Of a stretch of DNA of 64,000 bases, positions 2,478 to 53,440 are shown one piece after another. The position numbers and the translations under genes were made by a program. The stretch lies in contig JAFQHO010000003.1 of the NCBI GenBank assembly GCA_017397925.1, positions 20,276-84,275 of the forward strand, given 5' to 3'. Positions within the stretch are counted from its first letter, which is position 1. Each line of letters begins with the position of its first letter. The stretch comes from Ruminococcus sp. Its GTDB lineage: Bacteria > Bacillota > Clostridia > Oscillospirales > Ruminococcaceae. Under the pieces are notes generated by a model. It ran no database searches, was not told the DNA's origin, and saw nothing but the letters and a program-made list of their open reading frames with translations.

Positions 2478-2885
2478 ATGTCACACACAGTCACAAAACC
2501 AAATGAGAAATTCAATATAATACTTGCGGTAGTTTTTCACATTGCACTTATAATTCTTGATTATTTCTTTATAGATAATTACGGTGCTGCGTTTGGATAT
2601 TTCTTTCTTCTTGTCGGTGGAGTTTATTTTTTATACTGGATTATCTCCAACAAAAAAAGCTATATGCCATGGAAAGTATATTTAGTATTTGTAATTGGTA
2701 CTATTACCCAGCTTCTTCTGAGTTTAGAAGGAATAATTCCAAAGGAATATGGGACGGGTGAACCGGGCGTTGGAAAGAGTCAATTTCTTTATTGTATATT
2801 AATTCTTTTTTTAACTGTATTGATAGGTATTGCAAATTATATTTTGCATATTATTGATTCGGTGAGAAAAAACAAGGAAAATTAA
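2478..2885 (+). CDS. Small four-helix membrane protein (tandem paralogue 2)
   Basis: 135 residues, four predicted helices. It shares the LYWIISN-x-KSYMPW-x-VYL block with the gene immediately upstream, and the ribosome-site context GGGGAGCTGATA is nearly the same as that gene's. This points to a local tandem duplication. It has a slightly longer third loop (around residues 90-105). Function unknown. Confidence 0.7.
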   Translation: MSHTVTKPNEKFNIILAVVFHIALIILDYFFIDNYGAAFGYFFLLVGGVYFLYWIISNKKSYMPWKVYLVFVIGTITQLLLSLEGIIPKEYGTGEPGVGKSQFLYCILILFLTVLIGIANYILHIIDSVRKNKEN

Positions 2886-53291: not shown

Positions 53292-53320
53292 TTGACTGTA
53301 TTCGGGAAATACGGTATAAT
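53292..53320 (+). promoter_or_regulatory. Promoter of a gene-less transcription unit
   Basis: TTGACT (53292-53297), 17-base spacer, TATAAT (53315-53320). A terminator lies only about 115 bases downstream and no reading frame is between. Confidence 0.78.
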
Positions 53321-53326
53321 ATCAAT

Positions 53327-53440
53327 AGTGGTAAATACTAAGAACTATTTATCACTCGTTTTGTTGTCTCCTTTCTTTTGTTCTACACATTTATGTCTTT
53401 TCTAATTTATGTGAAGCCCGAATTTTCGGGCTTCTTTTTT
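53327..53440 (+). ncRNA. Candidate small regulatory RNA
   Basis: An expected transcript of about 114 nt begins 6-8 bases after the -10 box and ends at the terminator. Its 5' end can form an 11-bp hairpin (AGTGGTAAATA near 53328 with TATTTATCACT near 53346; one G-U pair). A pyrimidine-rich unpaired stretch follows with TCTCCTTTCTTTTG (about 53368-53382), complementary to Shine-Dalgarno sequences such as AAAGGAGA. The 3' end is a GC-rich hairpin with six T. There is no ribosome site or credible reading frame. This layout fits small RNAs that base-pair with mRNA starts; it has not been matched to any named family here. Confidence 0.6.
53413..53440 (+). terminator. Terminator of the candidate small RNA
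   Basis: GAAGCCCGA / TCGGGCTTC arms, short loop, TTTTTT. Confidence 0.9.

Follow-up and report, generated by a model that had tools for sequence, protein, structure and literature searches.

The window analysed here is a stretch of 64,000 nucleotides (nt) of Ruminococcus sp. DNA (contig JAFQHO010000003.1 of assembly GCA_017397925.1), and the element under study is a unit at window positions 53292–53440 that is predicted to encode a small RNA. The unit opens with the promoter elements TTGACT (53292–53297) and TATAAT (53315–53320), which are separated by a 17-nt spacer. A gap of 93 bases divides the -10 box from a terminator stem (53413–53434) that is followed by six T (53435–53440). All of these elements were found where an earlier note, made from the sequence of the window, had placed them. 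The features of the unit are as follows:

53292..53320, + strand: promoter of the small RNA; strictly matched at 104 of 111 loci in the genus and, with a looser pattern, at 231 of 238 distinct host-type loci across the family
53327..53440, + strand: predicted small RNA of about 114 nt, its start set six bases past the -10 box
53327..53356, + strand: 5′ hairpin of 11 bp in the first 30 nt, from folding of the RNA
53353..53390, + strand: 38-nt core CACTCGTTTTGTTGTCTCCTTTCTTTTGTTCTACACAT, the same in every one of 111 uncut loci of the genus
53368..53376, + strand: CTCCTTTCT, the part able to pair with Shine-Dalgarno sequences, whose nine letters equal the 3′ end of the 16S ribosomal RNA (rRNA) of genome G143
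53413..53440, + strand: intrinsic terminator, a 9-bp stem and six T; all 8 consensus pairs show compensatory changes across 67 aligned copies

The strict promoter pattern was defined as TTGAC-N16-18-TA(T/C)AAT, and AGTG stands at the predicted RNA start in all 94 distinct genus copies examined. The beginning of the core is shared with the 5′ hairpin; its open part covers positions 53358–53390 (33 nt). Folding of the RNA bore out both the 11-bp hairpin and the unpaired stretch TCTCCTTTCTTTTG that the earlier note had described, and the predicted energy of the 115-nt RNA is −26.1 kcal/mol, whereas 200 shuffled versions gave −12.7 kcal/mol (standard deviation 2.4), a z of −5.5. G143 belongs to the same family and stands in for the 16S comparison; rRNA was looked for in the window's own genome and was not found. 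The earlier note had also seen no reading frame between promoter and terminator, and this holds among relatives: a frame running from an upstream start codon through the core is open, in the one frame considered, in only 29 of the 67 aligned copies, and a small peptide gene was rejected as a candidate.

Consensus matches of this kind are not rare in the region. In a scanned 8-kb region, 14 promoter-like matches were found compared with 16.6 expected and 8 terminator-like matches compared with 5.4 expected, so that taken alone they are not above chance, and the case for the unit rests on its conservation. With a 166-nt query, 113 of the 125 genomes of the genus, the window's own genome counted, gave a strong match (expectation value, E, no higher than 2.4e-12). 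The remaining 12 genomes contain weak matches only; ten of them are less than 90% complete, while G030 and G105 are not. Two of the strong loci are incomplete: a contig end cuts L112, and N masks L113. In all the other 111 the 38-nt core is letter-identical, and its columns are invariant across the 67 aligned copies. We conclude, because the unit is conserved in 113 of 125 genomes, with the promoter kept in 104 and the core in all of 111 loci, that it is a real small-RNA gene with a predicted transcript, as the earlier note had proposed.

Both hairpins, unlike the core, vary among the genus copies. The MAFFT/RNAalifold procedure recovered the terminator only, and since length changes misalign the 5′ stem, this stem was tested by folding of single sequences. 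The median Z was −2.5 in the genus and −2.1 in other genera, and the signal was weaker when upstream DNA was included. Among 99 genus loci, 100% had at least half of the first four nucleotides paired; among 132 loci from other genera, the figure was 90%. In L006 and L009 the 5′ hairpin is duplicated and in L089, L101 and L110 it is extended by a further stem, with the core unchanged in each case. By sequence comparison, the predicted 5′ hairpin tolerates change and the core does not.

The unit extends well beyond the genus. A match with E of at most 0.01 was obtained in 101 of 297 family genomes, representing 39 of 126 genera, and the core with at most one mismatch in 93 of the 297 genomes and 32 of the 126 genera. 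The 33-nt open part is exact or nearly exact in these other genera; the hairpins that precede it differ in sequence (GATG...CATC, GGTG...CACT and others) and are still located at the 5′ end. Promoter, hairpin and terminator, whose conservation the earlier note had wished to see checked in relatives, are kept across genus and family. A scan of named genomes yielded at least 120 stretches, including Ruminococcus flavefaciens, R. albus 8 and Anaerotruncus sp. MC2020. Two host-type copies of the unit occur together in one stretch (L293). Exact 20-mer matches were confined to the unit's own family when 394 genomes sampled from the order and 291 from the class were searched, and none of 19 loci outside the family with one or two mismatches, viewed by eye, had the layout of the unit. 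The unit has been retained in about 32 genera with changing neighbours.

The search for targets began from weak family matches, which were mostly antisense and located in gene leaders. The 297 family genomes were searched for the 23-mer reverse complement AGAACAAAAGAAAGGAGACAACA with up to three mismatches, the RNA genes themselves being left out. We found 22 antisense sites in 15 of the 93 genomes with the RNA, compared with 6 sites in 5 of the 204 genomes without it (P=4e-5). A reversed-pattern control gave 6 sites in 4 of 93 and 8 sites in 8 of 204 genomes, respectively (P=1), and within carriers alone the difference between site and control was also seen (P=0.014). At the genus level, sites occurred in 9 of 32 genera with the RNA versus 5 of 94 without it (P=0.0013; control P=0.71). 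Of the 22 sites, 15 lie close ahead of an open reading frame (ORF), ending no more than 64 nt before its start, and two more share the leader of L153. In genomes without the RNA, one of six sites precedes an ORF start and five lie inside ORFs. Duplexes computed for 15 such loci have energies between −25 and −47.5 kcal/mol and Z between −3 and −12. The L153 leader itself (1491–1690, target strand +) carries three tandem core complements with A- and G-rich repeats between them.

Four GntR regulator genes are located behind such sites, each followed by an ABC ATPase gene either directly or after one intervening gene. Also found behind sites were an ABC ATPase gene after a response regulator, genes for an FtsX-type permease and DegV, an ECF sigma factor gene followed by one of the zinc-finger anti-sigma type, and, in two genomes of one genus, a gene for a DUF6514 protein, as well as other genes. 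The candidate targets suggest control of envelope and transport genes.

Since both the anatomy of the unit and the antisense sites point that way, we consider it probable that the unit is a trans-acting regulatory small RNA whose core base-pairs at ribosome-binding sites to block translation. The hairpins would shield and display the core, which would bind the ribosome-binding region of a messenger RNA (mRNA). The ideal partner, AGAACAAAAGAAAGGAGACAACAAA, carries the Shine-Dalgarno sequence AAAGGAG a few bases ahead of a start codon, and pairing there would block translation of the mRNA. Hfq probably assists; it is encoded in 59 of 60 genus genomes tested, so that a chaperone is at hand.

A number of results weigh against this reading. 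When folding windows were extended with upstream DNA, 23–32% of core positions were predicted to be paired. Five of the 22 family sites (in L410, L411, L371, L419 and L374) have no ORF start nearby, and the contrast in position between genomes with and without the RNA reached P=0.057 when counted by site and P=0.018 when counted by locus (P=0.013 when the two extra L153 sites are counted); moreover, genomes of one genus are not independent of each other. In the window's own genus there were 9 antisense sites, phage-type ones excluded, and 6 control sites (P=0.41 by genomes), and a pattern that tolerates G-U pairs gave 4 sites compared with 3. A perfect complement to the core spanning Shine-Dalgarno sequence and start was present in 2 of the 125 genus genomes (control, 1), and the 51 ORFs of the window showed no excess pairing with the core (mean Z −0.2). 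The ribosome site of nifJ pairs with the core at −10.1 kcal/mol, a value that 82% of 200 shuffled cores equal or better, and nifJ was rejected as a target on this ground. With no excess of long sites in the genus, any mRNA pairing there must use shorter duplexes, which are invisible to the patterns. Thus, of the earlier note's proposal that the pyrimidine stretch pairs with ribosome sites, the invariance of the stretch and the presence of sites before gene starts in RNA-carrying relatives speak for it, and an excess in the genus itself was not found. The count of perfect complements had raised a suspicion that complementary ribosome sites might be avoided, with only 70 comparable sites to judge by.

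Several single sites came to light in the same searches. The best-pairing ribosome site among the 51 window ORFs belongs to 2478–2885 (+ strand) at −22.7 kcal/mol; 0.5% of shuffled cores do as well, which is not significant after 51 tests. A near-perfect antisense site lies before an ORF at L121 1744–1766, in an apparent mobile element with a resolvase-like ORF close by, and similar sites are present in G019 and G087. Two 14-nt G-U-tolerant core pairings fall in one rRNA locus, one of them in the 16S trailer.

The ORFs closest to the unit include nifJ at 74 or more of the 111 genus loci (the nifJ cluster has 75 entries with L096 counted twice, and further loci may have been missed where an antisense ORF was picked). 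The convergent neighbour is often a gene of the SpoVAC/SpoVAEB family (PF03862), and some loci have neither. The RNA is unchanged at loci where nifJ is not adjacent. As judged from these loci, the RNA appears not to be tied to nifJ, and a role in redox control, which the earlier note had thought possible, is not supported.

Copies of the core were also found in phages. A 22-nt part of it is exact in 23 IMG/VR contigs, some of which are nearly identical to one another, and likely prophages with the same arrangement are present in genus genomes (L114–L117). A hairpin of unrelated sequence precedes the core in many phage contigs, e.g., AGAGATCAGGC...GCCTGTTCTCT, and a further hairpin often follows it. 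Across 20 distinct leaders the median Z of the hairpin was −2.9, a favourable figure as the best of several windows was taken, and −1.4 with a fixed window; no clear hairpin was seen at the phage-type loci L118, L177 and L180. The core points in the same direction as the late genes and mostly stands where the packaging operon begins. Each of the 11 loci tested has a terminase or portal gene downstream (at L117 by a weak match), and six of eight tested upstream proteins match PHROG 36, a transcriptional regulator, one of them weakly. In 17 of the 23 contigs a transfer RNA (tRNA) gene lies within 400 nt past the core, two being tRNA-Leu and 15 having a CAT anticodon, as listed here:

L173, L175, L176, L179, L183–L187, L189–L192, L194 and L195: CAT-anticodon phage tRNA just after the core

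The D-arm and anticodon loop of these CAT tRNAs, viewed by eye, resemble those of initiator tRNA. When annotated phages were searched with one leader, 614 records matched, and the 20 matches listed hit the tRNA part only. An Rfam scan of 11 phage loci returned tRNAs and one skipping-rope RNA, and none at the core; the latter (RF02924) is located at L195 6419–6517, 2 kb from the core on the same phage contig.

The phage core in its late-operon leader presumably acts on the same mRNAs as the host RNA, and an RNase P cut at the tRNA could release the leader. Tentatively, host and phages might share one riboregulatory word: through the cut the phages would obtain their own form of the host RNA, and this form would either silence the mRNAs that the host RNA acts on or stand in for the host RNA in infection. 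Use by both parties would then contribute to keeping the core frozen. The predicted RNA is unusual in how long its frozen core is, in how freely the hairpins around that core are exchanged, and in having phage copies.

The core might instead be frozen by the binding or titration of a conserved RNA-binding protein, with mRNA pairing secondary. An unstructured pyrimidine-rich stretch that is invariant over 33–38 nt, longer than most pairing seeds, would fit this, as would the lack of a long antisense-site excess in the window's own genus. We nevertheless regard it as unlikely, for family-wide the antisense sites ahead of genes tend to be found together with the RNA, and the reversed control shows no such tendency. 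That CTCCTTTCT equals the 3′ end of 16S rRNA in a family member invites the proposal of a general anti-Shine-Dalgarno mimic that copies the rRNA tail and competes for many mRNAs, with no specific targets; it accounts for only 9 of the 33–38 invariant nucleotides, the candidate sites match well past the Shine-Dalgarno sequence, and it is accordingly improbable. Somewhat less probable again is a cis-acting element of the nut/boxA or put type that would make RNA polymerase terminator-resistant in phage late leaders. Its position at the head of late operons, after a hairpin, is what such an element would have, but the host unit possesses its own terminator, genes beyond it are often on the other strand, and the presumed rRNA boxA of G143 (one genome) is unlike the core. 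Finally, a gene-leader remnant, the decayed leader that the earlier note had kept in view, or a small coding gene can practically be dismissed, even with promoter-like and terminator-like matches at chance frequency, given conservation in about 32 genera while neighbours change, invariant third codon positions and no reading frame kept.

The observation of the earlier note is thus confirmed and its interpretation partly supported, and the range in the family, the phage copies and the candidate targets are additions to it. No Rfam family reached the gathering score in the window, and the ten sub-threshold matches at the locus include no RsaE. These bacteria are major fibre degraders of the rumen and gut, and a literature search found no described trans-acting small RNA for them. 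That a stretch of 33–38 nt has stayed the same in dozens of genera is indicative of a central regulator, and with the phage copies one may ask in what way host translation control is used by phages.

FsrA and the csRNAs are Gram-positive small RNAs that direct a pyrimidine-rich region against ribosome-binding sites; the window RNA would share this trait, and comparison through Rfam scans gave no match. In RsaE/RoxS of Staphylococcus and Bacillus, according to PMC4409812, C-rich regions bind Shine-Dalgarno sequences and block translation. The window RNA is likewise a conserved Gram-positive small RNA, and C-rich pairing to Shine-Dalgarno sequences is predicted for it; it differs in having one CUCC stretch in place of several C-rich regions (PMC4409812). 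It also belongs to another host group and has phage-borne copies, and RsaE/RoxS gave no Rfam match at the locus at E up to 10. In action the window RNA would resemble RsaE/RoxS, but it does not belong with them as a family. Small RNAs and anti-sRNAs encoded by phages take part in the small-RNA networks of their hosts (PMC4104026, PMC12197685). The phage copies of the core are like these in being RNA carried by a phage, with a presumed input into such a network. An anti-sRNA is the complement of a small RNA of the host; the phage core here, by contrast, has the same sense as the host core and is carried in the leader of a late operon, often before a tRNA.
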